Shown here piece after piece: positions 16,501 to 64,000 of a stretch of 64,000 nt of DNA. This stretch comes from Asterias amurensis (Eukaryota > Echinodermata > Asteroidea > Forcipulatida > Asteriidae), in assembly GCF_032118995.1 (NCBI RefSeq), contig NC_092657.1, positions 7,255,391 through 7,319,390 of the forward strand, written 5' to 3'. How positions within the stretch are numbered: the stretch's first letter is position 1; each line of letters opens with the position of its first letter. The notes below the pieces were generated by a model that saw nothing but the letters and a program-made list of their open reading frames with translations, ran no database searches and was not told the DNA's origin. Both the position numbers and the translations under genes were made by a program.

Positions 16501-16782
16501 AGGCCAATTTCGCAGGGTCTCTATGCTGTTGGGGTTTGGGGAAACGCCCTCACTGCTAATTTGTTTGCCAAGAAATATCACCTTTCGTTTGAAAAGCTGA
16601 CACTTTTTTGCTTTCAACTTTAGGTCATGTGAACGAAACCGCTCAAAAACAGTCATGAGATTTTTCATAGAGTCTTCAAAACTCTTGCCGAGAATGATAA
16701 TATCATCTTTATCACCTCTTCCCATTCCAAACCTCTCAATATCAGGGACATGGCACGTTGAAAAGTAGCAGGGGCATTGCAT
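16489..16782 (-). pseudogene. RT C-terminal palm/thumb, shifted frame
   Basis: The frame contains KDDIIILGKSFEDSMKNL and KLKAKKCQLFKRKVIFLG, the sequence that normally follows the RT catalytic YxDD. The switch from the upstream ORF occurs at about 16708-16713, directly before the two aspartates, so the catalytic motif is broken in this copy. The return shift is near 16500. Confidence 0.8.
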
Positions 16783-36107: not shown

Positions 36108-37340
36108 ATGGCAGCGTCACGGACGCTGGACAGGCCCTTGAGCCTCGACATATGCCTGTACCAGAAAACTACACCCGACTCAATGTTTCGAGAACTGGAT
36201 AGAATAGTTAATGAAGACGAGGTTTCCAGCCTGCAACACCTACACGATAAGAAGTGGTGCATCACCCTCAAATCAGCCGACGCAGCAAACAGACTACAGA
36301 GCCACCCACTAACCGTTGATGACAAACCTGCCCAGATTAGCAGAACGCAAGAACGAACGACGTACATAAATGTGTTCAACGCCCCGACGGAGATGGGGGA
36401 TGCTCCGGTGTCGACCATACTTTCCGGCTATGGCAAGATAGTCTCACACCGCCGGGGACACTGGAAAACCCACGAGACCTGGCTGAACGGTATTAGACAT
36501 TATGCAATGATTCTGACCAAATCAATACCGAGTTTCTTGAAAACTGGACAGACGACGATCAGAATCACATACAACGGGCAAACACCGACCTGCCGTATTT
36601 GTAATGAACAAGGACACATGGGGGCTCAATGTCCCAATGAATTCTGCACTAACTGCAAGCAGCACGGCCACGGGAGCGCCAAGTGTCGGGTACCGAGGAA
36701 ATGCCACACTTGCACCCAAATAGGACACCTCGCCCGGGATTGCCCGGTCGGGTACCGGACCACAACATACAGACGAGCTACTATGGATTTTCCACCTCCC
36801 CCCGAAGGACGCCCCAGCAAGACAGATAACCCCGAAGAACCACCAAACAACCAGCCGGAGGTACCGGGGGTGCGAGCACCACCACCCACCGCAGCAGCAC
36901 CACCCACCGCAGCACCACCATCCACAGCAACCCCCGGACAACGACCCTCGACCGTCCCTGGACAAAAACTGACGCCAAAATCAAAGGAACAACAAAAGAA
37001 ACCTTCACTCCCACCGAAACCTACACTACAGCCAAAACCTAAACCCCCACCGAAACTAGAACACACTACACCCAACCAAGAGCCCAACCTAAGTGACTCA
37101 AGCCTGCCTACATCAACAGACCACCCTTCAGACGACGGCGACGACGGCGACGACTCCGACGGATCACAAATGTCCGTGGTAAGTACATCAACAAAACGCC
37201 ACCTCACCACGGACGAGTCGGAGTCGTCATTCCACGACGCACAATTACCCCAGACACCAGAACCAGAGCCTTCGCCGGAACTGGAGTTCAGAAGCCAACG
37301 ACGAAAGAGATCACGGAGAAGGAAACCCTATGAACATTGA
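36108..37340 (+). CDS. Tx1/L1-like LINE ORF1, nucleic-acid binding protein
   Basis: 410 intact codons from ATG at 36108. The N-terminal ~155 residues have no motif I can name but precede three CCHC zinc knuckles: CRICNEQGHMGAQC (C162-C175), CTNCKQHGHGSAKC (C180-C193) and CHTCTQIGHLARDC (C199-C212). The C-terminal half is Pro/Thr/Lys-rich with an acidic patch (SDDGDDGDDSDGS) and ends in a basic tail. This is the usual build of ORF1 proteins of Tx1-clade and related LINEs, which bind element RNA. ORF2 follows on the same strand after about 70 nt. About 150 bp upstream (35959-36107) is probably the element 5' UTR. Confidence 0.85.
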   Translation: MAASRTLDRPLSLDICLYQKTTPDSMFRELDRIVNEDEVSSLQHLHDKKWCITLKSADAANRLQSHPLTVDDKPAQISRTQERTTYINVFNAPTEMGDAPVSTILSGYGKIVSHRRGHWKTHETWLNGIRHYAMILTKSIPSFLKTGQTTIRITYNGQTPTCRICNEQGHMGAQCPNEFCTNCKQHGHGSAKCRVPRKCHTCTQIGHLARDCPVGYRTTTYRRATMDFPPPPEGRPSKTDNPEEPPNNQPEVPGVRAPPPTAAAPPTAAPPSTATPGQRPSTVPGQKLTPKSKEQQKKPSLPPKPTLQPKPKPPPKLEHTTPNQEPNLSDSSLPTSTDHPSDDGDDGDDSDGSQMSVVSTSTKRHLTTDESESSFHDAQLPQTPEPEPSPELEFRSQRRKRSRRRKPYEH

Positions 37341-37413
37341 ACATTGAATAATGAACTGGTTTCTTTACTCATTCACAGGCACACACAACTTTGGCATTTT
37401 TGTTACATTTATT

Positions 37414-40085
37414 ATGTGTAGCTTAAACATATGTACTTTAAATGTAAACGGGCTGAAAAACCCGGTTAAGCGTGCTCAAATTTCCACCTCCTGCGGCAGT
37501 AGAAAACCCGACATTCTACTGCTGCAGGAGACCCACGCCTCCGGCTTCTATGAAGCTAGAGGCTGGGCCAAAGAGTTTAACTCTAAAGGTTTTTGGTCTT
37601 TCGGGACTAGTTCTAGTTGTGGCGTAGCCATTTTGTTTTCAAACCGGTACTCCTGGAAACCGATGGACCAGTTACGGGACAATGGCGGTAGATTAGTTTC
37701 CATCACAACAACTTTGCCTGGTTCTAAGGCTCGGGTCAGAATAATCAATTGTTATGCACCAAACCACCCCGCAGAAAGACGGCGCTTTTTCAAAGAACAA
37801 TTTGCCACTTCACACCCGGGGCAATCGTATTTCTGACCAGAGCCTTGATTCAAAAAACCAATTTCCTAATCACCAAGGTTTACGAGGAACTAGAGAATTA
37901 TTCCGTACTGTAAAGTGTCATGATTTGGTAGATACCTGGAGGACGAAACACCCCAGCGTTAAAAGATAAACCTTTCACAGTGCGGATAATTCAAAAGCCA
38001 CTCGTATTGACAAAATATTCTTGTCCCGTGAATTGTCCATCGGTTCAGAAAGTGAAATAACTGCTTTTCCTTTGTCTGATCATGATTTGGTAACCACCAA
38101 GATATCCAATGTGATTCAAAAAACCGGAAGAGGATATTGGAAATGCAATACATCTTACTTGCCCCAAGCAGAATTCCAACATATGGTTAAATCTACTTGG
38201 GCTGTTTGGAAAAAACAAAAGCGGAATTTTGATAAAATTACGGAGTGGTGGGACAAGGGAAAAGCTAACCTCAAAAGAGCGGTTATTTCTTTTTCTGTAA
38301 ACGCCTCCAGGAGGCGTAATCTTGAACGGAAGTGTCTCTTGAAAGAAATTGATCAATTACAGAGTAAAATAGATAATGGTGACTCTTCATGCGCCCCTAG
38401 ACTCAAAGCAGCGAGACTAGAATTTTTGAAAAACACCCAAAAACAAGACGGTAGCAAATTCCAAAGCTAACACCCAAAAACAAGACGGTAGCAAATTCCA
38501 AAGCTATCGCCCTTCAACCAAAATCAAAGGCAAAGTAAACATTCAGTGCCCAAACACAAAAGACCCCGACTCCAAGCGCATGCAGAGTCTCAATGGCCGT
38601 GACGGGAGTGTAACAGAAGACCCAGTAGTAATGACTGAAACATGCCGTCAATACTATGACCGCCCCGGTCGAACAAAAAGAAATCGATTTATTTCTTGAG
38701 TCAATTGACAGGTCACTGAGCTCAGAGAAACAAAATTCACTAGAAGAGCCGGTGACACTGCCTGAGGTGCAGGCTGCATTGTTTAGTATGGAGGCGGGCA
38801 AATCCCCAGGTCAAGATGGTTTGCCCGCAGATTTTTACAAAACGTTTTTCAACGAGATTGGGCAAGATATTTGCGACGTAATCAACACGGTCTTTGAAAA
38901 TGGTAATTTAAGCCAAACTCAAAAGAACGGGTTAATCACCCTGATTTTTAAAGAAAAGGGCAACCGTGACGACCTAAAAACTGGCGCTTGATCTCGTTGT
39001 TAAACGTTGACTACAAAATCATCTCCAAGATCCTCGCCACCAGACTACGCACAGTCCTGAACAGTGTTATCCATTTGGATCAAACCTGTTCGGTGGAGGG
39101 TAGATCAATACTAGACAATGCACACTTGCTCCGAAACGTTCAAGATTACGTTGAGCAAAAGAATATGGGCGCGGTCTTTGTGTCTCTCGATCAAGAAAAA
39201 GCTTTTGACAGGGTAAACTGGGGGTATCTCAGACAAGTACTAGGAAAATTTGGCTTCGGTCCAAATTTCCAAAAGTGGGTCGAAATCCTGTACACAGACA
39301 TAGACAGTGCAGTTATTTGCAATGGTCACATTTCGGAACCCTTTTCACTGTCACGCGGGGTCAGACAGGGTTGCCCCCTTTTCCCCCTACTGTACATTTT
39401 GGCCTTGGAACCTCTAGGCTGCGCGCTGAGAGGTGATCCATCTATCGTGGGGATCAAATTACCCGGTGGGACCGAAGCTAGAGTTTCCATGTATGCCGAT
39501 GATACTACCCTTATCCTGTCAAACGACCGTTCCGTTGTCCACAGCTTTAGACTGATCGAGAGATATGAGAAAGCGTCCGGCTCCAAGCTCAACCAGCAAA
39601 AGTCCCAAGGATTTTATCTTGGGAGGTGGAGTGGAAGGTTGCATGGACCAGTTGACATAGCCTGGGGTAACTCAGCCAAAATTATCGGGGTTAATTTCGG
39701 AAACAAAGACTCCCGAAAAGAAATGTGGGACCGAAAAATTTCCAAAATCGAACAATCAATCAACGATTGGAGTGGCCGGGATCTAACCATGAAAGGAAGG
39801 GTCACGGTCACTAACACATACATTTTGCCCAAAATATGGTACTTGGCTGAAGTTACCCCGCCCACGATGAGAGAAATAACGAAAATAAACCAAATCATTT
39901 TTCGATTCATCTGGGGCCACAAAGGCGAATTTGTCAACCGGAACACCATGTTTCTCCCCACTTCCCGAGGTGGCCTTGGGGTAGCGAATATTGAAGAAAA
40001 AATGGCTACTATGCAAGGGATGCATATAAAACAAATTATCAGTGAAAAACCAGCGAAGTGGCAATCTCTGGCGAGGTACTGGTGA
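37414..40085 (+). pseudogene. Tx1/L1-like LINE ORF2 (endonuclease-reverse transcriptase), frameshifted
   Basis: An APE-type endonuclease starts near 37414: ICTLNVNGLKNPVKRAQI, DILLLQETHASGF (catalytic Glu) and RVRIINCYAPNHPAERRRF. After frame changes it ends with ITAFPLSDHDLV (catalytic His) near 38060. The RT follows: GKSPGQDGLPADFYKTFF, a frameshift in an A run near 38980, SVEGRSILDNAHLLRN, VSLDQEKAFDRVNWGYL, LSRGVRQGCP and the catalytic MYADDTTLIL (Asp pair 39498-39503). The frame ends at a stop at 40085, earlier than in full-length elements. A perfect 34-bp duplication at about 38437-38505 (CACCCAAAAACAAGACGG twice) adds a further break. RT block style places it near the Tx1/L1 group. Dead copy. 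Confidence 0.85.
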
Positions 40086-40847: not shown

Positions 40848-43800
40848 ATGAAGTGGTGGAGTAGATACCGGCTTTCTCTTCGCCTAATGATGTTGTTTTT
40901 GATAATAAACGATGGTGACATGTCAATGTGTGGTGTACATGTTGCTGATAGTAGCAATGGGCACGGATCAATGCAACACCTGGCATTGTCAACTTTCAAG
41001 AAGAAATGTCGCTCAGGTAAGTAATAGGTTTGTTCGGTCAATTTCGGGAAACGAGCAGCCAATTTAACCACCAAGCTATTATATTTCGAGCGAAATCGAA
41101 TGCTACCGAAAAGGGTCATTCGTGTTTAGTTAGATGTTCTCCTCCCATACAAACATAGTTTTAGAAGACGAAGTTTTTTTGTTTTGTTTTATGGGGTGTT
41201 CGTGGAAGTGTCGTGGCCGAGCGTTTAAGAGCACCGAATTCAAACTCTGGTGTTTCTGATCAGCAGAGTGTGGGTTCGAATCCCCAGCCGTGACACTGTG
41301 TCCTTGAGCAAGACACTTAACCATTGCTTCGTCCTTCGGATGGGACGTAAAGCCGTTGGTCCCATGTGTTGTGTAACGCATGTAAAAGAACACAGTGCAC
41401 TTATCGAAAAGAGAAGGGGTTCGCCCCGGTGTTCCTGGTTGTGGCTGCTTAATGCGCCGTAGCACCTTGTAAACCCTTATAAGGTGCTAAATAATTGGGT
41501 CTCAGAATTCATCACTGCAATAACCTATCTTTCTGAAAGTTTGTATATACTCAGCGCCTTGAGTACCTTGTTTGGTAGATACGTGCGCTATATAAGACTT
41601 CAATATTATCTCCATACTTTTTAGTTCTCTTGTAGTTACTGTATGTTTACTTTACGGTAACGCGCTTTGTCTGTCTGCCATTGCCGTTCTGCGCCCTCTA
41701 TGGCTAGTTCGAGCGATATTGGTCATGTTTTACCCAGGTAGCTCCGAACCCAAGTCTGTTATTAACTCTTTTCCATTTGACACCATATTCAATTGCTCTT
41801 GGATCTCTAAGTGGCCTAATAAGATTGCACCATACACAAAGCATCTAAAATGCAAAATTGTTCTGCGTCAGTAAGCGAGCCCGGAAAGGTTTCACACTCT
41901 CGCGTGCTCACTCTTTGACAGAGATGCCCTCTAAAACTTGTGTCATAGATCCGCACCTAAAGAAGATGTTGTTAACCCAAAAGGTTCTACTGCTGCTCAC
42001 ATTTTAAAGATTTTATGTTCTGTTCCATTCGTTATGCCTCTTGGCCTAAGATTGCACCACAGAGCATCTAGAATGTAAAATTTTCCCGGGCCCTTAGGCG
42101 GGCCCGGACCCCAGGCCGTAAAAAGTCTTTGCGTTCCTGCAATACAGCCGTAGAGTTATGTATAACTCTATGGATACGGTGCAAAGCGCATGAAAACTAG
42201 TACACAATGAATGCTGGTTTAGGGGCCATTTATTCGCTATAGGTTCCTTAGTTGGTCCTTTATCATCCGATACATCCCCACGTGATCGGGTTTTGAAACT
42301 GTCCAAGTTATTTATTAATGTGATATTTGTTTCTCATTCAGCTTGCTCAATCGAAGGACCTCTTGGGATGGAAAATAAAGTTATTCCAGATGCAGCAATT
42401 ACAGCATCATCTACTTATGAAAACATGATCCCCACTCATGGACCACAACGATCTCGGTTAAACACTATAGGTAAACGTTTACCACTTTCTAAAAACAGTG
42501 TTTAGACTTTCAACATTTATTTCTCAGCACAAGTTTTCTACCCACTTGTTTACATACACAAACTGTTTAGATTCGTGTGTGCGTGTTAATGCTACAAACC
42601 AATTGAGCAGGAGTCGATATTGGAGAATAGACACGAAAATGTAGATTCGTGGATAGAATGTACGAGCCGAAGCTAAGGCGCGTATTGTAGTTACGAATCT
42701 ACACTTATGAGTCTATTCTCTGACTTAAAATACTTTCGAAAAAATGTGTACTTTGTTCAACGATGTTAGGTCACACTTGTATTCTGCATATATTGATAAG
42801 CATATTGTGGTTGCAACATTATCGAGTACAATGTTTTGATCAGTTTCGATTATGTTTGTACTATTCAAAAAGCAAATTAATTAAAACGGGAAAAAACACT
42901 TGGAAATTGAAACATGTTTTTACTTGTGTTTTGCACGTGGTATTATCTTTCAATTAGAAAATGCAGTTATTTCAACTTGAACTGACGTCACAGAATTAGT
43001 TTAACGCATCGTAATGGTGCGCTGCCCATGATAGCGATGCTGAGGGGCCACGACATAAAATGGCAGTCTTACTATTAATGGTAAAACGTGTGCTGTTTAA
43101 TCTGCAGGACAGTGTGCTGCTTGGGGTCCGTCAACTAGTGACACCCAGCCATGGATCCAAGTTGATTTGGGTAGTGTTTCATACATTACTGCTTTAATCA
43201 CACAAGGCCGAGGTAACCGTAATGTTGACCAATGGGTTACTGCATACAATGTGAAGTACGGCTTGGAAGTTGAACCGACAAAATATGTCACTGATGTATA
43301 TGGTGTACCAACAGAGGCAAGTATTGGGAGACTTTGGAACGCTAGGTGGCAGCATTTACCGGGTAAAAGTCCATTGTCTGTATAGTTCTGAGCATACTGT
43401 GCACATTACAAAAAAAACAATAGACCTTTTGGAAATTACCCATTGCGCAAACGCTAAATGTTGAATGATGTGCATACTAGGCCAAATTTCTTAACGCTGC
43501 TTAGCGGCCGATTTTGTGCTTACTGTGCGATTACCATTTCATAGCACTCTAACCGTGAGCACACGAAAAGGCATGCTAACCTTCCGGTGTTTTCCGCACG
43601 AAATTAAATGACGTCACAATCATATTCATGGTAAACGCTAACCTGTGAAATACGCTTGCACCTAAGCAAAATAATTCTGCTGCAGTAAGCACATGGTCAG
43701 GCTAGCGATTAACAGGGCCCAATTTCATAGAGCTGCTGAGCACAACTTTTTTTGAGCATGACATGTTTGCCTTGATAAAAAACAGGACTAGGCCAAATTT

Positions 43801-45270
43801 CTTAACGCTGCTTAGCGGCCGATTTTGTGCTTACTGTGCGATTACCATTTCATAGCACTCTAACCGTGAGCACACGAAAAGGCATGCTAACCTTCCGGTG
43901 TTTTCCGCACGAAATTAAATGACGTCACAATCATATTCATGGTAAACGCTAACCTGTGAAATACGCTTGCACCTAAGCAAAATAATTCTGCTGCAGTAAG
44001 CACATGGTCAGGCTAGCGATTAACAGGGCCCAATTTCATAGAGCTGCTGAGCACAACTTTTTTTGAGCATGACATGTTTGCCTTGATAAAAAACAGGATT
44101 ACCAACCAAACTTCCACGTGGTTTTCGGGATGAGCAAATAACAGCTTAATATCACTAACAAGCAATACAGAAAAAAAAAATGAAAATTTGGTTGGTAATG
44201 TTTTTATCAAGGAAGAAATTTCATGCTTAGCAAATTTGTGTGCTCAGCAGCTCTATGAAATTGAACCCATCGCTAGCTAGACCAGCTTGCACCTCATTCT
44301 TTTAACGCCTACACAACGCACGTACCAAGTATTTGCAATAAGGTCGATTGTTTACGGCGTAGTTCTGAGAACAAAGAGATTTACCTGGTAAGTCTGCTGC
44401 CACCAAGCGTTCTTATCAAAAATCGTTGTGATTAGAAGATAAATAATCCCACAATCGCAGGTGTGATTGGTCAATCTCTCTCAAAACTATACACGGTCAG
44501 AATTCTGGTTAATTTTGACCATTTGACACATATCGCGATTCATACCGACCCAGGAACGAGTCAACACCCAATGATCTGGGTAAATAAATAATGACCCAGA
44601 ACGTAGGTTGGGCTTTAGTGTTTAATGATCGGGCTTGGGGCGTTACTGGACTTATAAGCCAGCCAAAGGTGAATCTAAAACACAAATCTGAAGAACATGT
44701 TTCAGGTTAGTTTTTTTGCAACAACAACAACATTGATGGCAGTGAAGCACTGTATGTAAATTACCAAATACATAACCTGGCAAACATAATAGAAGTTTGG
44801 GGTCGATCGGCCATCTGGACCAAGAGAAAATAGTGAAAAACCGATTCCACATGTTGCCATGACATCGATTAAAAAAAAAAACGCTGAGCGATAAACTTCA
44901 AACGGGAAATTTGTTTTATTTATTTCTCATCAAGTATGACATTTTAGACAGAAATATTTTTTGGGATGTTTTCTACTTTCATCATCATTGGATCGTGTAG
45001 GTTTCCTTACCAATTATGTTATATTCCTTTCAAACACTTGATTATAGTGCACTATGACATGTACTTGAATTCATCTCTAATAGTAACTTAAGTCTCACGT
45101 TTCTCCAAATGTCACTCTTTTCATTACAGTTCGTAGGGAATACTGATGCAAACAGTACTGTAACGACTCGATTTGAGACTGCATTAGTTGCACGATTCCT
45201 GCGCATACTGCCGAAAAAAAATTGTGGTTACTACATGATTCGTTTTGAGGTTATTGGTTGCATGTTTTAA
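40848..45270 (+). CDS. Secreted single discoidin (F5/8 type C) domain protein, four exons
   Basis: Exon 1, 40848-41016: MKWWSRYRLSLRLMMLFLII, a signal peptide followed by ~35 residues. Exon 2, 42342-42470: ACSIEGPLGMENKVIPDA then ITASSTYE, the start of an F5/8C domain. Exon 3, from 43108: GQCAAWGPSTSDTQPWIQVD then ITALITQGRGNRNVDQWVTA. Exon 4, 45130-45270: FVGNTDANSTVTTRF, VARFLRILP and IRFEVIGC, then stop. Exons 1-2 and 2-3 join in phase. For exon 3 the best in-frame donor is GGT|GTACCA at 43304; a GGTAAAAG donor at 43362 is stronger but would break the domain, so alternative splicing or a sequence error is possible. The product is ~211 residues. Discoidin domains bind carbohydrates, phospholipids or cell-surface proteins; first and last cysteines (in ACSIEG and EVIGC) should pair. 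AATAAA lies at 45319. Confidence 0.8.
41209..41611 (+). mobile_element. tRNA-derived SINE in intron 1 of the discoidin gene
   Basis: The 5' part is tRNA-like: A box GTGGCCGAGCGTTTAAGAGC and B box GGGTTCGAATCCCCAGCC at tRNA spacing. An unrelated body follows with CTTGAGCAAGACACTTAACC and GGTGCTAAATAATTGGG, and it ends near GCGCTATATAAGACTTCAAT. A second copy is at 45826-46551. Confidence 0.8.
43476..44097. repeat. 311-bp perfect tandem duplication in intron 3
   Basis: 43476-43786 is repeated without visible change at 43787-44097. The unit contains a GGGCCCAATTTCATAGAGC repeat and a second one with CACCGGAAGG-type words (as CCTTCCGGTG). It lies within intron 3 of the discoidin gene. No difference between the copies suggests a very recent event or an assembly artefact. 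Confidence 0.85.
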
Positions 45271-51787: not shown

Positions 51788-52317
51788 AAAAAGCGGTTCC
51801 GATTAAATTAATAAGCAATGATTTTGACAAGTACATAAAACTGTGTACAACAGTTTATAGTTCGATATCATGAGCTTCTCAATGTCTCCCCGAAAATTAG
51901 GGGACATTATCGTACAAAAGGTAATGATTATATATTTTTCTTTCCAGTGATTATATTAAAACAAAAGCAAAACAAAAAAATGAACTTCGATGTTCATTTA
52001 TTTCTTCTAATCTACCTACCCACAATTATTTTGGGAAAACAACATTGACTGTAGTAAAAAAAAAATGAACGGGCCCCATATTGCAAACAAGTTGAGTTTA
52101 TTGCATATACACTGTCACTAGATCTGTTCTGTTTTTTGTTTTTACGTGAAAAGTTTTATCAGCAGAAATACCGAGAACCTTTTACACCCAAAATAATTTC
52201 GGGAACGCCCCTCCCCTCCGCTCCTCCCCGTACTGCATGGTTTCTTTTCTAGCGAATGGGTTGTTGGCTAGAAAAATCGGGCCAGAAGCGCGGCTAGCTT
52301 GCTTTAGCGCGGTGTTA

Positions 52318-52450
52318 TGGGACCAAGCTGAAGCTAGCCGCGAATTCTCAGCCGCAAATTCCCAGCCGCGAATACCAGCCGCGAATTCTCAATTTACGGC
52401 CGAAAAGTCCAGCCGCTAATTCGAGCCTCCACGCCAGCCGCGAATTTCAT
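52318..52450. repeat. CAGCCGCGAATTC simple repeat
   Basis: Irregular tandem copies of a ~14-bp unit (CAGCCGCGAATTCT and variants), GC-rich compared with the AT-rich surroundings. It lies just left of the large tandem array. Confidence 0.7.
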
Positions 52451-52699
52451 TACCAAAGTAGTTTCACGAAGCGACAGGATTTCCTAAGTTGTTCATCCAC
52501 ATAAGCCACTATTTCTTAAATTTTGTAAAATCATGGCAATTTTGAACGTTGGTTTTGTAAAATTTTGGTCATAATAACAAAATGTAGGCCAAATTAGGTT
52601 AAGATAATTGAATTTGTAATGCTTTAGTCGATCCATCAAACTATATTGGTTACATATCGACTTTCTGAATATCAGTTGTTTTGAAAATAAAATAAAATA

Positions 52700-55600
52700 A
52701 TAAACATTGCATTGAACAAAATCTACCTAATATGATCCACAGATAATAAATTTAGTGTTAAATCTTTTAGACACTAAATTAATATTCCATTGCAGCTTTA
52801 CTAGGCCATCTAATTAGTTCCTAATTACATTTATTTTGTGTTTTTTGTTAATAGCAAAAGTAGTCACTTTAAAACGCAATTTACCTCGCATAATTAACAA
52901 AAAATTAAATTTTAGTGTTTAATCATTAAGACCATTTCATAACACACCGAAATATTCCGTTGCAGCTAATTACACCATCTAATTAATCATAATGACACCC
53001 ATTTAAAGGGTATGGGTTTTGTCTCTTTTGAATAGGACTATCACAAAAAAACAACAACATAAGTAGTCACTTTGAAACAAATTATACCTCACATAGTTAA
53101 CGAAATTGTTAATTTGTTTTGCTTAATCATTAAGACCCTTTCATAACACATCGAAATATTTCGTTGCAGCTAATTACACCAACTAATTGGTGCCTAATTA
53201 AACCACTTTATATGCTGTGGGTTTTGTCTCATTTGCTTTTTATCAACGAAATAACGTAAGTAGTTACTTTAAAACAAAATGTACCTCACATAATTAACAA
53301 ATAGTTACTTTTTAGTGTTTAATCATTAAGACCATTACATAACACATCGAAATAGTCCGTTGCAGCTAATTACACCATCTAATTGGTGCCTAATTAAACC
53401 ACTTTATATGTTGTGGGTTTTGTCTCATTTGAAGGGAATTTTTAGACTAAAAAATAACGTAAGTAGTCACTTTAAAACAAAATGTACCTCTCATTAATAA
53501 CAAATAGTTTATTTTTAGTGTTTAATTATTAAGACCAATTTATAACACATCGAAATATTCCGTTGCAGCTAATTACACCATCTAATTGGTGCCTAAATAA
53601 ACCAATTTATATGTTGTGCGTTTCGTCCCATTTGAAGGAAATTTTTAAACTAAAAATTAATAAGTAGTCACTTTAAAACAAATTGTACCTCACATAATTG
53701 ACAAATTGTTACTTTTTAGTGTTTAATTATTAAGACCATTTCATAACACATCGAAATACTCCGTTGCAGCTAATTACACCATCTAATTGGTGCCTAATTA
53801 AACCAATTTATATGTTGTGGGTTTTGTCCCATTTGAAGGGAATTTTTAGACTAAAAAATAATAAGTAGTCACTTTAAAACAAAATGTACCTCACATAATT
53901 AACAAATGGTTACTTTTTAGTGTTTAATCATCAAGACCATTTCATAACACATTAAAATATTCCGTTGCAGCTTATTACACCATCTAATTGGTGCATAATT
54001 AAACCTCTTTATATGTTGTGGGTTTTGTCTCATTTGAAGGGAATTTTTATCAAAGAAATAACGTAAGTAGTCACTTTAAAACAAAATGTACCTCACATAA
54101 TTAACAAATAGTTTATTTTTAGTGTTTAATTATAAAGACCATTTTATAACACATCGAAATATTCCGTTGCAGCTAATTACACCATGTAATTGGTGCCTAA
54201 TTAAACCAATTTATATGTTGTGGGTTTTGTCCCATTTGAAAGGAATTTTTATCAAAGAAATAACGTAAGTAGTCACTTTAAAACAAAATGTACCTCACAT
54301 AATTAACAAATAGTTTATTTTTAGTGTTTAATCATTAAGACCATTTTATAACACATCGAAATATTCCGTTGCAGCTAATTACACCATCTAATTGGTGCCT
54401 AATTAAACCAATTTATATGTTGTGGGTTTTGTCCCATTTGAAGGGAATTTTTAGACTAAAAAATAATAAGTAGTCACTTTAAAACAAATTGTACCTCACA
54501 TAATTGACAAATTGTTACTTTTTAGTGTTAAATTATTAAGAACAGTGTTTAATTATTAAGACCATTTCATAACACATCTAATTAGTTATTAAATAAACCA
54601 ATTTATATGTTGTGGGTTTTGTCTCATTTGAAGGGAATTTTTAGACTAAAAAATAACGTAACTAGTCACTTTAAAACAAAATGTACCTCACATAATTAAC
54701 AAATTGTTACTTTTTAGTGTTTAGTTATTAAGACCATGTTATAACACATCGAAATATTCCGTTGCAGCTAATTACACCATCTAATTGGTGCCTAATTAAA
54801 CCACTTTATATGTTGTGGGTTTTGTCTCATTTGAAGGAAATTTTTAAACTAAAAAATAATAAGTAGTCACTTTAAAACAAATTGTACCTCACATAATTGA
54901 CAAATTGTTACTTTTTAGTGTTTAATTATTAAGACCATTTCATAACACATCGAGATACTCCGTTGCAGCTAATTACACCATCTAATTGGTGCCTAATTAA
55001 AACTCTTTATATGTTGTGGGTTTTGTCTCATTTGAAGGGAATTTTTATCAAAGAAATAACGTAAGTAGTCACTTTAAAACAAAATGTACCTCACATAATT
55101 AACAAATAGTTTATTTTTAGTGTTTAATCATTAAGACCATTTTATAACACATCGAAATATTCCGTTGCAGCTAATTACACCATCTAATTGGTGCCTAATT
55201 AAACCAATTTATATGTTGTGGGTTTTGTCCCATTTGAATGGAATTTTTAGACTAAAAAATAATAAGTCATCACTTTAAAACAAATTGTACCTCACATAAT
55301 TGACAAATTGTTACTTTGTAGTGTTAAATTATTAAGAACAGTGTTTAATTATTAAGACCATTTCATAACACATCTAATTAGTTATTAAATAAACCAATTT
55401 ATATGTTGTGGGTTTTGTCTCATTTGAAGGGAATTTTTAGACTAAAAAATAACGTAACTAGTCACTTTAAAACAAAATGTACCTCACATAATTAACAAAT
55501 TGTTACTTTTTAGTGTTTAGTTATTAAGACCATGTTATAACACATCGAAATATTCCGTTGCAGCTAATTACACCATCTAATTGGTGCCTAATTAAACCAC

Positions 55601-56960
55601 TTTATATGTTGTGGGTTTTGTCTCATTTGAAGGGAATTTTTAGACTAAAAAATAATAAGTAGTCACTTTAAAACAAATTGTACCTCACAAATTGACAAAT
55701 TGTTACTTTTTAGTGTTTAATTATTAAGACCATTTCATAACACATCGAAATATTCCGTTGCAGCTAATTACACAATTTAATTGGTGCCTAATTAAACCAA
55801 TTTATATGTTGTGGGTTTTGTCCCATTTGAAAGGAATTTTTATCAAAGAAATAACGTAAGTAGTCACTTTAAAACAAAATGTACCTCACATAATTAACAA
55901 ATAGTTTATTTTTAGTGTTTAATTATTAAGACCATTTTATAACACATCGAAATATTCCGTTGCAGCTAATTACACCATCTAATTGGTGCCTAATTAAACC
56001 AATTTATATGTTGTGGGTTTTGTCCCATTTGAAAGGAATTTTTATCAAAGAAATAACGTAAGTAGTCACTTTAAAACAAAATGTACCTCACATAATTAAC
56101 AAATGGTTACTTTTTAGTGTTTAATCATCAAGACCATTTCATAACACATTAGAATATTCCGTTGCAGCTAATTACACCATCTAATTGGTGCATAATTAAA
56201 CCTCTTTATATGTTGTGGGTTTTGTCTCATTTGAAGGGAATTTTTATCAAAGAAATAACGTAAGTAGTCACTTTAAAACAAAATGTACCTCACATAATTA
56301 ACAAATAGTTTATTTTTAGTGCCTAATTAAACCAATTTATATGTTGTGGGTTTTGTCCCATTTGAATGGAATTTTTAGACTAAAAAATAATAAGTCATCA
56401 CTTTAAAACAAATTGTACCTCACATAATTGACAAATTGTTACTTTGTAGTGTTAAATTATTAAGAACAGTGTTTAATTATTAAGACCATTTCATAACACA
56501 TCTAATTAGTTATTAAATAAACCAATTTATATGTTGTGGGTTTTGTCTCATTTGAAGGGAATTTTTAGACTAAAAAATAACGTAACTAGTCACTTTAAAA
56601 CAAAATGTACCTCACATAATTAACAAATTGTTACTTTTTAGTGTTTAGTTATTAAGACCATGTTATAACACATCGAAATATTCCGTTGCAGCTAATTACA
56701 CCATCTAATTGGTGCCTAATTAAAACTCTTTATATGTTGTGGGTTTTGTCTCATTTGAAGGGAATTTTTATCAAAGAAATAACGTAAGTAGTCACTTTAA
56801 AACAAAATGTACCTCACATAATTAACAAATAGTTTATTTTTAGTGTTTAATCATTAAGACCATTTTATAACACATCGAAATATTCCGTTGCAGCTAATTA
56901 CACCATCTAATTGGTGCCTAATTAAACCACTTTATATGTTGTGGGTTTTGTCTCATTTGA
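52700..56960 (+). repeat. Tandem array of ~200-bp repeats, left arm of a giant transposon
   Basis: About twenty units with the core TTCCGTTGCAGCTAATTACA, then GGTGCCTAATTAAACC, ATGTTGTGGGTTTTGTC and GTAGTCACTTTAAAACAAA. Cores lie near 52960, 53160, 53360, 53565, 53765 and so on to 56890, a spacing of about 200 bp. The leftmost units (52750-53100) are the most diverged. Three shortened units (near 54540, 55330 and 56470) with AACAGTGTTTAATTATTAAG recur inside larger blocks, giving a higher-order pattern. The array runs directly into the large ORF. The same unit in reverse orientation lies at 63770-63960, right of the ORF, which supports long inverted arms. No terminal boundary could be fixed on the left. 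Confidence 0.9.
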
Positions 56961-59900
56961 AGGAAAACGATGGCGATACAATTTCATCAACACATTCGTA
57001 CATTTCATCAGATTCGACAATCATACCATTATTATATTGCATTTGCAATCAACCGTACGACCCTTCGCTTAGTATGGTTGCTTGTGATCTATGCAATGCA
57101 TGGTACCATTACACTTGCCTAAATCTACAACCGCTTTCTACTAATCAATCGTACATGAACAATGTTTCATTTATATGTGGTGTTAATAACTGTAATAAGG
57201 GTGAGAGGGTGTTTTTTTGCCCAAGTACCCCTGACTCAAAACAAGACAGAGAACCACAAGACAAAGAACAAGACAGACAATCAGACAAAGAACAAGACAG
57301 ACAATCAGAAAAAGGACAAGACAGAGCACAAGACAAAGAACAATACAAAGCACAAGACAAAGAACAAGACAGAGCACAAGACAAAGAACAAGACAAAGAA
57401 CAAGACAGAGCACAAGACAAAGAACAAGACAAAGAACAAGACAGAGCACAAGACAAAGAACAAGACAGAGCACAAGACAAAGAACAAGACACAGCAAAAG
57501 ACAAACAGCAAAACAAAAAACAAGACAAAGAACAAGACAGAGCACAAGACAAAGAACAAGACACAGCAAAAGACAAAGAACAAGACAGAGCACAAGATAA
57601 AGAACAACAAGACACAGCACAAGACAAAGAACAAGACAGAGCACAAGATAAAGAACAACAAGACACAGCACAAGACAAAGAACAAGACAGAGCACAAGAC
57701 AAAGAACAATACAGAGCACAAGACAAAGAACAAGACAAAGAACAAGACAGAGAACAAGACAGAGCACAAGACAAAGAACAAGACACAGCAAAAGACAAAG
57801 AACAAGACAGAGCACAAGATAAAGAACAACAAGACACAGCACAAGACAAAGAACAAGACAGAGCACAAGATAAAGAACAACAAGACACAGCACAAGACAA
57901 AGAACAAGACAGAGCACAAGACAAAGAACAATACAGAGCACAAGACAAAGAACAAGACAAAGAACAAGACAGAGCACAATACACAGAACCAGACACAGCA
58001 ACGTCAGACAATGAGGAGGACACATCACAAAACAACGAACAATACAAAGAATACCAAGATATATTACAAAATAAAGAACATATCAAAGAAAAAGGCAAAC
58101 TAAATTACAGAATACCTCACAGAGAAGTAGACAGAGAAACAAATATAGAACAATACAAAGGAAATGATTTGCATCAAGAGAAATACAAAGACGACCTCGT
58201 TTCTGAGAAATTACCCGATTATGAGCACTCCAACACAACAAAAGTTTGGCAATGGTTAATGGCGGACAAAGAAAACAGTGCAAGCTCCCATCAATACACT
58301 AATTTTCTTGAAGCAACACCTGATGTCTCCTCAATAGGAGCATGCTTCTCGTCAATAAATACACTTTCACCTGTTGTGGATAAATGTCACAAACGGGGAA
58401 ACAAACGCAAATTTGAGTCCCTCTCGTTTTCAGAGTGTTACTCACAAGACGCCATTTATGAACCGCATTGTTCTAACACATATAATAGTAACACATCAGA
58501 CCTTAGTAGGAATCATGCCGATGAGTTCTTGCCCAATGATGTTATCGTCGGCATGTGTTCACGGAGCAACAACATAAATAACATACAAAAATTTTGCAAA
58601 GTCCCATTGCCAGACCGTCGGAAGTGTTTTTTTTCCATAGACAAATCGGAATGGAAAAAACTTAAACAAAATCAAACTGGAAATTCTTTCCGAAGGTCGT
58701 GGATTCATGTATTTATAAAAGGACTTAAGCAAATCCACCCGTACTGCTCTTTTCAAATAAAACGACACTACGTCTCCGGGAACAAACGAAAGAAATCCAA
58801 GTTTGCGTTTAAAGCAAATGGGTATTGCAATTTCACGGACTGCACTGTCAAGTTTAATCTATCAATGGAAGACGAAAAGTCTTTGAAGGTTAAAGTACAA
58901 TTTGATGGCGAGATGAAGCATGATAAAACTGAACGACGCGCAAGATATATAAGAAACACTCGCAGAGAAAAGTTAAAAAAGGTATTGAAGTACAAAAAAC
59001 CACGACGTGAATACATTGACAACCTGAGGTCATTAAGTGATAAACAATTTTTTTCTGGCTGTAGGGACGAAGCCCCGAACAAGGAGGTTTTGCAAAAAAT
59101 ATCTAGCGAAGCCAAACAATTGTCAGACCCTAGTGAGAGCGAGCTACAAGGACTTTTAAGTATATGTGAAAAACAAAGCGACTCAAGAAGGAAAATCCCC
59201 GGTATTGTGCGTGACGTTTCTCTATACCCACCTACTGTGATACTGTTCTCACAATACAGCTTAAACGTTTATCACCACATTTCTTCTAGAGATATCATTT
59301 ACCTTGATGCCACTGGTTCAATAATGCAAAACAACTCAACGTTCTCAAAAACAAAGAAATACCAACTGTACGATCTCGTTGTTCGCCATCCACTTAAAGG
59401 ATCACCGCCTCTTGTGATTGCTTCAATGTTAACGACAGATCATAGCGCTTTCCGAGTGTCGCATTTTCTACAAATGTTTTTGCACAAAGAGCAAACTATT
59501 TACGGTTATAACTCCCCCAAAGAACCAGTAATGGTGATGATTGACGGGAGCTCAACTCTTCTACTTTCTTGCCTAACTAGTTTTTGTAAAGAAACTGTGC
59601 TAGAGTACCTTAATCGTTGTTATCGGATAACCACCGGCTGCGCAGAAGGCAAAGATCTGAATAAAACCGTAATGCATTGTTGTGCCAGTCATTTTTTGAA
59701 AAATGCATCAAGGATGATAAGAAAGTACTATAAGAAGAACTATCGCGAAGCAATGTTTTGGATCGGTTTGCTTGTAAAAAGTGCTGACATGGCGGAAATA
59801 AACGAAATAGTCAAATCACTTGCAGTTTTAACTAGATCACATTTCTCTACTGACCTCGTAAAATTTCACTTCAATAAACTCAAGCACAAAGTTGAGGATT

Positions 59901-62560
59901 TGGATGATGCAGCAGCAACAGAGTTACATGATGACTGGTCAGATGACGATTGTGAGGATGAAGGTGCAGACAGCGTACAGCCCGCATATGTTGACATCGA
60001 ACACGGACATTTATTAACACAAGACGAGTTTATCTCAAAATCACCCAATTCACCTTTTAAGCGTCACTTTCAGTCAATTGTTAAAAGTGCTATTGCAGAA
60101 GTGACTCAATACGAAAGCCACAACGACACGTCGCTTTTAACGGAAAACACATACGCTGGCAAAGATTTCTTAAAGTACTTACTGGATTTTGCGCTTCCAA
60201 ATGTACCAAATTGGTCTGGGCTTATGATCCACGATTTAGGCAGGCATGGAACATCTGACATATATTCACGATACTCGAAATTTTACAAGTCTCTTAGTAC
60301 ATCTAAATTTCAAAACATCACTTCAAATAATCGCACCCAGGGAATCATTGAGAAAAGTATGGGTGAAGTTAAACGCGTAAAGTTACAGCATAACCGATGT
60401 AGAAAGCTAAATGATTTTGTACTACTGTATGAGCAGGACTTGTTGCCGGTACACAGAGAATTCTGCGAAGCGTTTTGCAAATCAAAGAAACAAACACGTA
60501 GACAGTTAGTAACACTCACAAGCGAGAAATGGTGCAAACGGGTGAGGAACAGTACTCCCAAAAGTAAAGGAGTTTATTTGACACCTCCATTGAAAGGTTT
60601 AAACTTTAAAGACAAACCGACGAAGAAAACAAAACATGACAGCACAAAGAAAGAAAACAAGGGCAACAAAAGTGGCAAAAAGAATTCTGCCAATCTTCTA
60701 CAACAAGAACCACAGCCTAATAAACCTAATGCTCAGTCAAAAGCGAAAAGCCCGAAACCGGAACCAGCAAGTAACCCACAACAATCACTTAAACTTGCCT
60801 CCGAGATTGAACTTGGTGTTAAAGGTATTGCAAATAACAGTGTATCCTGTTGGTGGATTGCGACAGTGCAAGCGCTCAAGCCTTTCATACACCACGCTAA
60901 ATTGGATGTTTCGAAGTGGGAGGGAAGTGACACTTTTCTTTGGAGAAAATTTGTACTCTTGTACGAAAGTTTAAAATCCAACAGTTCTCAACCGGTCCCA
61001 TTTCGTCACATCCAACCGATGGTAAAAGATTGTGCTAGACAAATGAAATTAAAGGCCAATCAACAGCAAGACGCTGCTGAGTTTTATGCGGAGATTATGG
61101 TTACTTTTTTGGAAGAATCATGCCTGACTAACAAAATTGAAATCTGCCAAAGTGTTTTGTGTCTCAACTGTAATGCTAAAGTCGATGTCGAAAATTCTAC
61201 TTCAGGTGTACTGCCACTTGCTATAGGAAAACAAAACATTGTTGAATGTTTGCAGTCTCATTTTAATGATGAAACTGTCGATGGTATTTATTGCAGTCAC
61301 TGCAACCAAAGGTGTCCTAAATTGTACACCAACCGTATCGTTAACTGTCCATCGTTGATTGTAATACAACTATTACGTTTCGCAGTAGAAAATGGCAAGA
61401 CGAAGAAGGTGACTTCGACAGTAAACCCCGATATTGACATAGATTTGTCAAATTACTGCGTAAACCATACGCCTTCGTGTTATCGTTTGCGCTCAGTTAT
61501 TGTTCATACGGGAGATTCTTTGGAAAGTGGTCATTATAAAACATTCTTACGTCACTCCAATGGCTCAATAACTGAATTTGATGATGATCGGGTCCGAAAA
61601 GTCAGTAACTTACGTTTCTCTGCCTATGCATGCTCATCTGGGTATCTGTTGTTTTATGAAAAAATAGACCCACCTAACATATTAACAGTAGACTCCGCTG
61701 CTATTTCTGAAGCCACACTTAACGACGATGGTTGCAATGTACTTCACAATGAAACTGATTTTATACAGCTTATGTGGAAAAGAATCAGTTCGAGTAATTT
61801 ACATTATGTTGCTCTTCGTGATGACCGCACTAATGATGTGCTAACTTTCTACAACTTAGCAATGCTAGATCCCCACCCATCAAAAGCAGTATACAACAAA
61901 ATACGCGGACTGTATCCAAGTTATCACCGTGGCTGGTTGAGTGAAGATTTAGTTGACTTTTACTTGTCCCAGGTGTGTGAAATTTTAAATGACGAACACA
62001 AGAGAAACAAGTTTGGTGTCATACACTGCATTGATTCGTTGAATATTCTGACAGAAAAACCTACCACTGAAACATTTAAGTCAGTTTCAAGAAAGTGGTT
62101 CAAGAATGCAAAATTTTGCGACATTCTTATACTTCCACTTTTGCAAAACAAACATTTCACTGTTTACATAATAGACAACGAACTCAACACAGTCCAATGT
62201 TACGACTCTTTAAGTTTCAGCCATGACACAAGAAGTAAAATGACTGCACACGGACATGCTTTGTTACAATTTTTCATAAATGGAAGAGTACAGAGGTTTT
62301 GGACAAATTTACCGCGTGCGTTTGAGGTACGAGATAAATGCACAATCAAACAAGCAACATGTGTACAGCAATCTGACTCTGCAAGCTGTGGCGTTTACTG
62401 TTGTTTATTTGTTGAAGAACTGTACCTCACCACTAACATGAATTGCAAAGATACTGCTGAAAATCTTAGGATATACATAACAAAGCAGTTACTAACAAGA
62501 TCCACAATCGTTGATCCTTCATTGAGAAGCCAGTTTGAATCATGTAAAACAGATTTATAG
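56888..62560 (+). CDS. PHD finger - DDE transposase - USP - Ulp1 protease fusion protein
   Basis: Single intronless frame of 1890 codons. Its first 17 codons and the first ATG (56936) lie in the last repeat unit; an upstream exon spliced at TTGAAG|G (56961) is an alternative. PHD finger C51-C102 with all eight ligands (C51, C53, C66, C69, H74, C77, C97, C102). Residues ~117-370: repeated KEQDRAQD-type tract. ~575-1200: transposase-like, with a possible zinc site (C647, C652), YLDATGS (D807), VMIDGSS (D886), a C/H motif in HCCASHFLKN, and NNRTQGIIEKSMGEVK (E1155), in the style of MULE/Foldback DDE enzymes; an acidic insert (DDWSDDDCEDEG) lies before E. ~1310-1600: ubiquitin-specific protease, NNSVSCWWIATVQAL (C1321), QQDAAEFYAEIM, a four-Cys finger (CLNCN, CSHCNQRC), SGHYKTFL (H1549) and EFDDDRV. 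~1690-1890: Ulp1/C48 protease, KHFTVYIID (H1756), YDSL (D1773), QQSDSASCGVYCC (Q1828, C1834). It sits between inverted repeat arrays, so it is probably a transposon protein. All catalytic residues are present and there is no internal stop. Confidence 0.85.
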   Translation: MQLITPSNWCLIKPLYMLWVLSHLKENDGDTISSTHSYISSDSTIIPLLYCICNQPYDPSLSMVACDLCNAWYHYTCLNLQPLSTNQSYMNNVSFICGVNNCNKGERVFFCPSTPDSKQDREPQDKEQDRQSDKEQDRQSEKGQDRAQDKEQYKAQDKEQDRAQDKEQDKEQDRAQDKEQDKEQDRAQDKEQDRAQDKEQDTAKDKQQNKKQDKEQDRAQDKEQDTAKDKEQDRAQDKEQQDTAQDKEQDRAQDKEQQDTAQDKEQDRAQDKEQYRAQDKEQDKEQDREQDRAQDKEQDTAKDKEQDRAQDKEQQDTAQDKEQDRAQDKEQQDTAQDKEQDRAQDKEQYRAQDKEQDKEQDRAQYTEPDTATSDNEEDTSQNNEQYKEYQDILQNKEHIKEKGKLNYRIPHREVDRETNIEQYKGNDLHQEKYKDDLVSEKLPDYEHSNTTKVWQWLMADKENSASSHQYTNFLEATPDVSSIGACFSSINTLSPVVDKCHKRGNKRKFESLSFSECYSQDAIYEPHCSNTYNSNTSDLSRNHADEFLPNDVIVGMCSRSNNINNIQKFCKVPLPDRRKCFFSIDKSEWKKLKQNQTGNSFRRSWIHVFIKGLKQIHPYCSFQIKRHYVSGNKRKKSKFAFKANGYCNFTDCTVKFNLSMEDEKSLKVKVQFDGEMKHDKTERRARYIRNTRREKLKKVLKYKKPRREYIDNLRSLSDKQFFSGCRDEAPNKEVLQKISSEAKQLSDPSESELQGLLSICEKQSDSRRKIPGIVRDVSLYPPTVILFSQYSLNVYHHISSRDIIYLDATGSIMQNNSTFSKTKKYQLYDLVVRHPLKGSPPLVIASMLTTDHSAFRVSHFLQMFLHKEQTIYGYNSPKEPVMVMIDGSSTLLLSCLTSFCKETVLEYLNRCYRITTGCAEGKDLNKTVMHCCASHFLKNASRMIRKYYKKNYREAMFWIGLLVKSADMAEINEIVKSLAVLTRSHFSTDLVKFHFNKLKHKVEDLDDAAATELHDDWSDDDCEDEGADSVQPAYVDIEHGHLLTQDEFISKSPNSPFKRHFQSIVKSAIAEVTQYESHNDTSLLTENTYAGKDFLKYLLDFALPNVPNWSGLMIHDLGRHGTSDIYSRYSKFYKSLSTSKFQNITSNNRTQGIIEKSMGEVKRVKLQHNRCRKLNDFVLLYEQDLLPVHREFCEAFCKSKKQTRRQLVTLTSEKWCKRVRNSTPKSKGVYLTPPLKGLNFKDKPTKKTKHDSTKKENKGNKSGKKNSANLLQQEPQPNKPNAQSKAKSPKPEPASNPQQSLKLASEIELGVKGIANNSVSCWWIATVQALKPFIHHAKLDVSKWEGSDTFLWRKFVLLYESLKSNSSQPVPFRHIQPMVKDCARQMKLKANQQQDAAEFYAEIMVTFLEESCLTNKIEICQSVLCLNCNAKVDVENSTSGVLPLAIGKQNIVECLQSHFNDETVDGIYCSHCNQRCPKLYTNRIVNCPSLIVIQLLRFAVENGKTKKVTSTVNPDIDIDLSNYCVNHTPSCYRLRSVIVHTGDSLESGHYKTFLRHSNGSITEFDDDRVRKVSNLRFSAYACSSGYLLFYEKIDPPNILTVDSAAISEATLNDDGCNVLHNETDFIQLMWKRISSSNLHYVALRDDRTNDVLTFYNLAMLDPHPSKAVYNKIRGLYPSYHRGWLSEDLVDFYLSQVCEILNDEHKRNKFGVIHCIDSLNILTEKPTTETFKSVSRKWFKNAKFCDILILPLLQNKHFTVYIIDNELNTVQCYDSLSFSHDTRSKMTAHGHALLQFFINGRVQRFWTNLPRAFEVRDKCTIKQATCVQQSDSASCGVYCCLFVEELYLTTNMNCKDTAENLRIYITKQLLTRSTIVDPSLRSQFESCKTDL
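57237..57995 (+). repeat. In-frame coding minisatellite (CAAGACAAAGAA)n
   Basis: About 760 bp built from the 12-bp words CAAGACAAAGAA and GACAGAGCACAA, giving a highly charged Lys/Glu/Gln/Asp/Arg/Ala stretch. Larger blocks of about 200 bp (from GACACAGCAAAAGACAAAG to GAACAATACAGAGC) are repeated nearly exactly. Because the unit length is a multiple of three and stop-free, the other frames on both strands are also open for 220-310 codons. Copy number should vary between alleles. Confidence 0.9.
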
Positions 62561-63769
62561 TCAGTATTTCAATGCAGGCTAACATTAAACAACCCTTTGA
62601 TGCATCAAATTGCACTCTCAGGTTCGAGGAAAAGGAGTCATTTTATTCATACTAAGGTTTGTCTGTTCTTCTTAAAACTAAGAAAACTAACAACACCGTA
62701 GTTTTCACAATACATTTTTATGAGACACACCTATTTTTTTTTTAAGTTGTACTTTTTTATGGCAACTTGAGGACATTTTCAGACACTTACCTCATCCAAT
62801 TTTTCTTGGTCTAAAAATAAGCAAGTTGTTGTTTCTTTTGCATATCAGCAGTACTCAATTGGTAAGTTTGAGACATCACGTTAAAGTTGAAAGTTATTAC
62901 AAAGAGTATGTGAGACGTCGAACTAGACATCCGTTTATTGCCATGCGCTTAAAGGCAGTGGACACTATTGGTAATTGTCAAAGACTAGCCTTTACATTTG
63001 GTATATCTCAACATATGCATAAAATAACAAACCTGTGAAAATTTGAGCTCAATCGGTCATCGAATTTGCGAGATAAAAATGAAAGAAAAAAACACCCTTG
63101 TCACACGAAGTTGTGTGCGTTTAGATGGTTGATTTCGAGATCTCAAATTCTAAATCTGAGGTCTCGAAATCAAATTCATGGAAAATTACTTCTTACTCGA
63201 AAACCTCGGTACTTCAGAGGGAGCCGTTTCTCACAATGTTTTATACCATCAACCTCTCCCCATTACTCGTCACCAAGAAATATTTTATGCTAATAATTAT
63301 TTTGAGTAATTACCAATAGTGTCCACTGCCTTTAAAACACCCTGTTCATAAGTGTATTTTTACACTTACACTAGAATTGCAGCAAATGTTTAAGGTTAAA
63401 CACGTAATTTTGCAGTTTTGTTTAAAAGGGTAGGCACACTTGTAGTAATTGTTATCATCATGGTCTTTAAACGCATCGATCATTAGGCTATACAATTATT
63501 ATGATGATGTAAACGGTCAAGTGGAAGGTGGGTAGGTGCATTTGTTGATGCTGCGGGTTGTCGAACTTTTTTCTTTACATTTTAACAACGAATGGAGTGT
63601 AAACATTTTATGTATTGATATTAAAAGGGCAGTGAATACCCTTATACCTTTCAGATTTGGAAAAACAATTAATTTAAAACAACAAGTGTTATGGAGTAGT
63701 CTTAATGCGCAAACATAAACAAATATTTTTTATTTTTTATTTTTTGGTGTGAAATTCTCTTTAAACGAC
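62561..63769. other. 3' region of the giant transposon, with a MITE insertion
   Basis: AT-rich, no gene. It contains a complete MITE (62953-63338) and otherwise unassigned sequence up to the inverted repeat unit. Confidence 0.6.
62953..63338. mobile_element. Complete MITE, AAAGGCAGTGGACACTATTGG family
   Basis: The ends AAAGGCAGTGGACACTATTG and CAATAGTGTCCACTGCCTTT are perfect inverted repeats. The interior has CTTGTCACACGAAGTTGTG and GAGCCGTTTCTCACAATG. It is the best-preserved member of the family in the window and inserted between the transposon gene and its right arm. Confidence 0.9.
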
Positions 63770-63965
63770 TTTAAACCCAGACCATTATATAAAGTTGTGT
63801 CATTATGAACTAATTATTTGGTGTAATTAGCTGCAGCGGAATAAATAAATGCGTTGTTGAATGGTCTTAATGAGTAAAGACCAACATTAAATACTTGCTA
63901 ATTACGTGAAGTCGTATTACTTTAAAGCGACTACATTTTTTCGTTAGATGTCATTAAAGAAATAT
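63770..63965 (-). repeat. Inverted copy of the ~200-bp repeat, start of the right arm
   Basis: Reads TTGGTGTAATTAGCTGCAGC, GAATGGTCTTAATGAG and TACTTTAAAGCGACTACA, which are the diverged reverse complement of the left-arm words GCTGCAACG... as GTTGCAGCTAATTACACC, ATTAAGACCATTT and GTAGTCACTTTAAA, in the matching order. This makes the arms inverted about the 1890-codon ORF. The arm continues past the window edge. Confidence 0.8.
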
Positions 63966-64000
63966 AAAACACATTCACATAAAATAAAGAAGTTCACGGC

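Follow-up and report, generated by a model that had tools for sequence, protein, structure and literature searches.

Proteases of the Ulp1 and OTU kinds occur in unrelated transposons, and their purpose there is described as an open question, with a role in transposition or repair having been suggested (PMC2836005). Ulp1 is carried by some Mutator elements, or Mutator-like elements (MULEs), of plants, hydra and lancelet; Ginger1 elements encode a C-terminal Ulp1 or OTU protease, accompanied in one family by a PHD finger; and the Trichomonas vaginalis transposase XP_001314237.1 bears a peptidase C19 domain, that is, a ubiquitin-specific protease (USP) (PMC2836005). Some Cryptons carry a C48 peptidase (PMC3212892). 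Rehavkus elements, reported from arthropods and annelids, have a PHD finger, 9-bp duplications, one open reading frame (ORF) and a minisatellite (PMC6446971), and Rehavkus-1_TC, 9.5 kb long, has inverted termini that contain a 164-bp repeat (PMC10218199). Tetris, a foldback element, has long inverted termini made of tandem repeats of about 220 bp and duplications of 8-10 bp (PMC4079207). Here we analyzed a stretch of 64,000 nucleotides from the starfish Asterias amurensis (NCBI RefSeq assembly GCF_032118995.1, contig NC_092657.1, positions 7,255,391 to 7,319,390), hereafter called the window, which holds most of a foldback element. We consider it probable that this is a Rehavkus-like transposon whose single protein joins an N-terminal region, a PHD finger, a DDE-type transposase, a USP and an Ulp1 protease, and we infer a mechanism from that architecture.

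The genome searched comprised 491,506,623 bases in 23 contigs, denoted by C and a number, the window being C10:7255391-7319390. In window numbering, the C10 element extends over 16.9 kb, from 52322 to 69195; most of it (52322-64000) lies inside the window, and its right end is 5.2 kb past it. An earlier note on this DNA had recognized the foldback arms but placed the start of the element at 52700, which is inside the left arm. Comparison of the two ends revealed a perfect 34-bp terminal inverted repeat, starting ACCAAGCTGAAG, which is followed on the left by subterminal DNA (52322-52857, plus strand) and whose right counterpart ends at 69195. Each end is adjoined by GTTATGGG, an 8-bp target-site duplication that was delimited by eye, taking the terminal ACCAAG of the inverted repeat as reference, with one copy at 52314-52321 and the other outside the window, at 69196-69203. 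The left arm (52858-56960, plus strand, 22 unit hits) is composed of tandem units of about 202 bp, with a 17-copy array at 52858-56329 and more copies up to about 56960. Downstream of the gene, a 3' region (62561-63750, plus strand) leads to the right arm, which holds the same unit inverted. This arm begins at about 63750 (63751-64000 in the window, minus strand) and continues to 69195, or C10:7324585, as seen by extending the contig 8 kb past the window. The extension, which the earlier note had proposed, thus yielded the inverted repeats of the right flank, the end of the right arm and the second copy of the duplication. The element therefore has the long inverted arms of tandem repeats that characterize foldback elements. 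The unit of about 202 bp gave 340 matches in the genome, and among the matches listed all fall within insertions of this family.

A search with the 438 bases of the left terminus returned 27 matches, 18 of which mark the termini of nine copies, located at eight sites. The long frame is present in five copies, on C10 (16.9 kb), C19 (26 kb), C2 (29.4 kb) and, as a tandem pair, C9 (about 20 kb each). Four more copies have the same ends but are short (C17, 6.1 kb; C22, 6.5 kb; C6, 5.3 kb; C18, 1.7 kb); in these, a protein search detected no match to the long frame, the C18 copy having been read whole. At all eight sites showing both ends, target-site duplications were found by eye. They measure 9 bp at six sites, C19 (GTTTTTGTA), C2 (CGCCCCCTG), the outer ends of the C9 pair (GTTGACAGC), C17 (TGCTTAGTC), C6 (TAAAAGAGA) and C18 (GTCCGCTGC), and 8 bp at two, C10 (GTTATGGG) and C22 (GTATAGCG), where assigning the final T of the right end to the target would give a ninth matching base. 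The long-frame copies are nearly identical, with 0-4 pairwise differences over 3873 nucleotides and at most two residue changes. Their arms vary in size far more than the gene does, the main arrays on the left containing 12 to 48 unit hits (C10, C19 and both C9 copies) and the right arms 18 to 35 (the same copies and C2). An assembly artefact as the origin of the copies is contradicted by the differing flanks at the sites. With its nine copies at eight sites bearing their own 8- or 9-bp duplications, its inverted tandem-repeat arms and its short derivatives that share its ends, the C10 element is a foldback DNA transposon with recent activity. The gene is multicopy in this genome, and not the single-copy gene that the earlier note had named as the alternative.

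Between the two C9 copies (C9:15608865-15649282) lie 7 bp that look like a target-site duplication cut short, and the 9-bp duplication brackets the whole pair. The two copies are identical across the 6873 bases compared, with 25 and 27 unit hits in their right arms, and the second copy could still be a duplication made during assembly. A tandem array with one common outer duplication might also be expected if a domesticated host gene had spread via segmental duplication, and an open reading frame with 24% identity to the transposase, at C9:11060939-11062600, has lost the first catalytic Asp, as a domesticated relative might. We nevertheless find this explanation scarcely credible, as the sites are spread over different chromosomes and differ in their flanks, with identical element ends and a target-site duplication of their own; for the window copy it is contradicted.

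The nine remaining matches to the left terminus are other fragments. Three of them were read (C17:11184581, C16:5649454 and C1:33199683) and contain the outer 165 bp or so of the element within another repeat. Because the flanks on both sides are common to all three, they seem to be part of that repeat, as if the terminus had been captured by a different mobile element.

The window copy of the gene is an open frame of 1890 codons, from a TTG (56888-62560, plus strand). The earlier note had described this frame correctly; the gene in this copy is, however, truncated at its 5' end. Its first 24 or so codons are arm DNA, with a junction near 56960, because the window copy has a deletion between the left arm and the gene. 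Longer frames with an extra N-terminal part are found on C19 (2032 codons) and in the C9 copies (2028 codons). The PHD motif starts at residue 197 in the C19 frame versus 49 in the window frame, so that the window copy has some two dozen arm codons in place of about 175 codons present in C19. The missing 5' sequence is present in all four other long-frame copies. In C2, an insertion of 4.8 kb that has a 5-bp duplication splits it (about 23949158 to 23944339), so that this part is unbroken only in C19 and the C9 pair. It includes about 95 residues with 39% identity to the start of a related frame on C13, described below (E value of 2e-18 in a two-sequence comparison), and this stretch has no Pfam match. 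As no Met precedes it in frame, a 5' exon may exist; none was found in this analysis.

Pfam profiles were run on pieces of the ORF and on the whole protein, and profile searches of solved structures (PDB) were conducted for each domain. The PHD finger (57038-57178, plus strand) is of the C4HC3 type that the earlier note had reported, with a Pfam PHD E value of 3.1e-8. Among 46 sequences, its top solved relatives are BPTF, PHF2, DIDO1, KDM7, PHF8 and SPP1, which we take to be readers of histone H3 trimethylated at lysine 4 (H3K4me3). The finger retains Tyr, Tyr, Met and Trp at what are presumably the H3K4me3 cage positions of BPTF and PHF8, both in the window family and in the C13 family. It is followed by a linker rich in Asp, Lys, Glu and Gln (57240-58051, plus strand), which a tandem-repeat scan resolved into in-frame 12/24-bp repeats.

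The USP domain (60824-61657, plus strand) matches Pfam UCH at 3.2e-27 over residues 1313-1590, covering the whole profile. Among solved structures, it matches USP8 (1.4e-13), USP2 and Ubp8, the top matches spanning the C-terminal half of the domain. It has two CxxC zinc knuckles, and the UCH profile together with the Cys-His-Asp/Asn triad (C1321, H1549, D1565/D1566) places it in peptidase family C19. The Ulp1/SENP domain (61934-62479, plus strand) belongs to family C48 by its profile and its His-Asp-Gln-Cys residues (H1756, D1773, Q1828 and C1834). In the ORF pieces it matches Pfam Peptidase_C48 at 5.6e-11 (43.1 bits versus a cut-off of 20.7), and its match to SENP1 in PDB is at 1.3e-6. A search of the genome with the C48 profile gave 15 matches, five of which are the long-frame copies of the window family. 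Both proteases, first proposed from the bare sequence together with their catalytic residues, thus find support in sequence profiles and among solved structures.

When the protein was scanned as a whole, UCH and PHD were listed, but the C terminus gave only adenain C5 (E value of 0.0065) and not C48. Adenain is a viral protease with a processing role. Its weak score on the Ulp1 region and the existence of one frame of 1900-2000 codons with low-complexity linkers between domains would fit a protein that processes itself, its own Ulp1 or USP cutting the giant product into transposase and accessory proteins, without any role toward ubiquitin or SUMO. As the solved structures nearest to the two domains are those of SENP1 and USPs, which act on SUMO and ubiquitin, and adenain ranks below SENP1 as a PDB match of the Ulp1 region (0.022 versus 1.3e-6), we judge self-processing to be quite unlikely. 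The more probable view remains that of a transposon protein with proteases directed at ubiquitin and SUMO.

Between the linker and the USP lies the presumed transposase (58655-60667, plus strand), identified by motif only, with a conserved N-terminal region followed by D807, D886, C932xxH935 and E1155. Asp, Asp, CxxH and Glu are found in that order in Mutator-type enzymes. The region is 62% identical to that of the C13 family, in which all these residues are conserved. We take the long protein to be the transposase because no other long frame was found in the mobile element and because it has these motifs. The triad D807, D886 and E1155 suggested in the earlier note is therefore present and conserved, its support staying at the level of the motif.

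At C13:10915360-10922022, one open frame of 2221 codons defines a second family that is 55% identical to the window family. It has the same architecture, with an N-terminal stretch, a long repeat linker, PHD, transposase, USP and Ulp1, and may be truncated too, because it starts inside an arm. Its arms are inverted arrays of 211-bp units, with best arm-to-arm matches of 91-92% identity, that are unrelated to the arms of about 202 bp. A binding motif shared by the arms of both families was sought and is not claimed, since the best candidate (18 bp, 16 matches) was reached by 26 of 500 shuffles. The catalytic residues are those of the window family, except for Asn in place of D1565. Between the families, the DDE core is 64% identical and the region preceding it 61%, compared with 53% for each of the USP and Ulp1 domains and 36-44% for three spacers. 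Every segment is at or near synonymous saturation, with proportions of synonymous differences (pS) of 0.73-0.99; pS is 0.77 for the USP and 0.73 for Ulp1, versus a nonsynonymous proportion (pN) of 0.30 for both. Synonymous saturation combined with conservation of the proteases argues that both have been kept by selection in both lineages, as judged from two families in one genome.

More relatives were detected. A decayed one is located at C10:9285-9288 kb, with more distant debris elsewhere in the genome. We rejected it as an ancestral PHD-transposase-Ulp1 form without USP, as most of it has 84-94% identity to the USP-bearing C13 family. It lacks most of the USP, which we read as a later deletion. 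On C4 (23149102-23150853), a 146-bp tandem array of 12 copies with 98% matches derives from a coding piece of the C13-family transposase and is apparently a minisatellite born from a transposon gene. The frame at C9:11060939-11062600 (minus strand, 554 codons), with another residue in place of the first catalytic Asp, is possibly a domesticated or dead relative.

The element resembles Rehavkus, a Mutator-related group that includes Rehavkus-1_TC and Rehavkus-1_HR and that the earlier note had not named as the closest known kin. Compared by published description only, the shared traits are a PHD finger with the transposase, one ORF, a 9-bp duplication (found here at six of eight sites, with 8 bp at the other two) and a minisatellite in the inverted termini (units of about 202 bp here and 211 bp in the C13 family). 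The starfish copies with the long frame are larger than Rehavkus-1_TC, 16.9-29.4 kb versus 9.5 kb (PMC10218199), and neither USP nor Ulp1 is mentioned in the portions of the Rehavkus descriptions that were available (PMC6446971, PMC10218199). The hosts reported there are arthropods and annelids, whereas the present element is in an echinoderm (PMC6446971).

Other described systems share fewer of these features. The MULEs with Ulp1 likewise combine a C48 protease and a DDE transposase in one frame (PMC2836005). Ginger1 differs by its Gypsy-integrase-like transposase, its CCGT-type target duplications and, in Table 1 of its description, by one protease type per family (PMC2836005). XP_001314237.1 has a transposase_11 enzyme, and the text devoted to it mentions neither Ulp1 nor PHD (PMC2836005). 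Cryptons use a tyrosine recombinase, and the peptidase of CryptonS is an additional protein (PMC3212892). For Tetris, the sections at hand report that no transposase-coding copy was found, whereas the starfish element has long-frame copies (PMC4079207). In line with the claim made in the earlier note, we found no description of a USP and an Ulp1 in one transposon protein in the open literature, to which the search was confined, so that absence from print, including subscription papers and Repbase reports, is not established. We conclude that the DNA transposon is genuine, that it is recent and of Rehavkus or foldback type, and that its protein has a new architecture.

The same genome contains a MULE transposase joined to Ulp1 in one frame of 1045 codons (L066, C15:2377238-2380300), with a PHD-like C-terminal segment recognized by eye. 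Its family is also present at C3:21148269 and C3:5082828, the latter known from its C48 match alone. L066 has a Pfam MULE match and no UCH match, and hhalign detected no similarity between it and the transposase region of the window family. L066, with its Ulp1 and PHD-like C terminus, and four other MULE transposases of this genome (L067, L068, L069 and L071) with PHD-like N termini, also seen by eye, bear on the classification, as they would be in keeping with a foldback element outside Rehavkus that came by its PHD finger and minisatellite arms independently; foldback structure may evolve repeatedly (PMC4079207). That three Rehavkus traits coincide here, the PHD finger, the 9-bp duplication and the tandem repeats in inverted termini, makes such convergence unlikely in our view, and a Rehavkus-like transposon is the reading that we retain.

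Several results weigh against it. No Pfam transposase family matched the ORF, as a whole protein or in pieces. Structure prediction, a check suggested by the earlier note, yielded uninformative and unusable models with AlphaFold from two-sequence alignments (mean predicted local distance difference test scores of 31.7 and 35.9). By hhalign, the transposase showed no relation to MULE transposases of the same genome (probability of 0.1-0.2%), in a comparison of low power with 2-4 sequences per side; a weak alignment pairing the first catalytic Asp of both (E value of 0.67) is not counted as evidence. With neither a Pfam MULE hit nor a relation by hhalign, the element is not filed as a MULE. In the C13 family, Ulp1 scores 20.4 with C48, versus the Pfam cut-off of 20.7, and it is missing from the 15 genome matches. 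Because of saturation in the other segments, dN/dS was computable for the Ulp1 segment only (0.14). Lastly, the usual USP form is GNTC, with an oxyanion Asn two residues before the catalytic Cys; both families have Val at that position (SVSC or NVSC), and so USP activity is not certain. This Val would be understandable if the USP were a noncutting ubiquitin-binding module, leaving Ulp1 as the sole working protease. However, the Cys, His and Asp/Asn triad and both CxxC knuckles, which a binding module would not need, have been kept at 53% identity, and we regard a noncutting USP as rather doubtful.

Further searches with the transposase were also negative. Pfam holds transposase models for Kyakuja-Dileera-Zisupton (KDZ), Ginger and P/Galileo, and none of these was listed at E values up to 10 for the whole protein and up to 1 for the pieces. 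The transposase region found no relative in the PDB profile search, with a single hit at an E value of 2.3. A pattern search of viral_contigs gave 218 matching stretches, not one of which was confirmed as a relative.

If the Rehavkus-like reading is correct, the transposase would bind the 34-bp ends, and probably also sites repeated in the arms, excise the element and insert it via a staggered cut of 9 bp, or sometimes 8 bp. The PHD finger, whose positions match those of H3K4me3 readers, may keep the transposition complex on active chromatin. The USP would strip ubiquitin and Ulp1 would strip SUMO, the substrates being either the transposase or chromatin and repair proteins at the donor and target, and removal of these tags might counter degradation and SUMO-linked silencing. 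As the earlier note conjectured, the proteases could serve to protect the transposase or to open chromatin. More tentatively still, and with less confidence than in the architecture, we envisage one self-sufficient protein, a chromatin-editing transposase that would read H3K4me3, remove ubiquitin and SUMO at the target and use the arms as its own binding sites, with both activities retained since the families split. It would be the first known transposase to act against both modifier systems simultaneously.

Two protease families and a chromatin reader are joined here in one conserved protein, and with nearly identical copies at hand the question of what such proteases are for becomes testable. 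The locus also offers a foldback element together with its transposase gene, and Rehavkus-like elements would extend to echinoderms.

The remainder of the window contains other repeats and mobile sequences. Two arrays of the palindromic word GATAAACACTGTTTATC, at 3458-4981 and 32110-32736, have partly similar repeat units and are perhaps two copies of another repeat-rich element. Retroelement remains are found at 16665-20137 (minus strand), with a gag containing a helix-hairpin-helix, an aspartyl protease and a reverse transcriptase, and at 36108-40085 (plus strand), with a CCHC motif and a reverse transcriptase. A TatD-type DNase is encoded in one frame of 356 codons at 14942-16012 (minus strand), perhaps a retrocopy because retroelement genes are nearby. 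Finally, a 311-bp unit is repeated twice at 43476-44098 with 100% identity.

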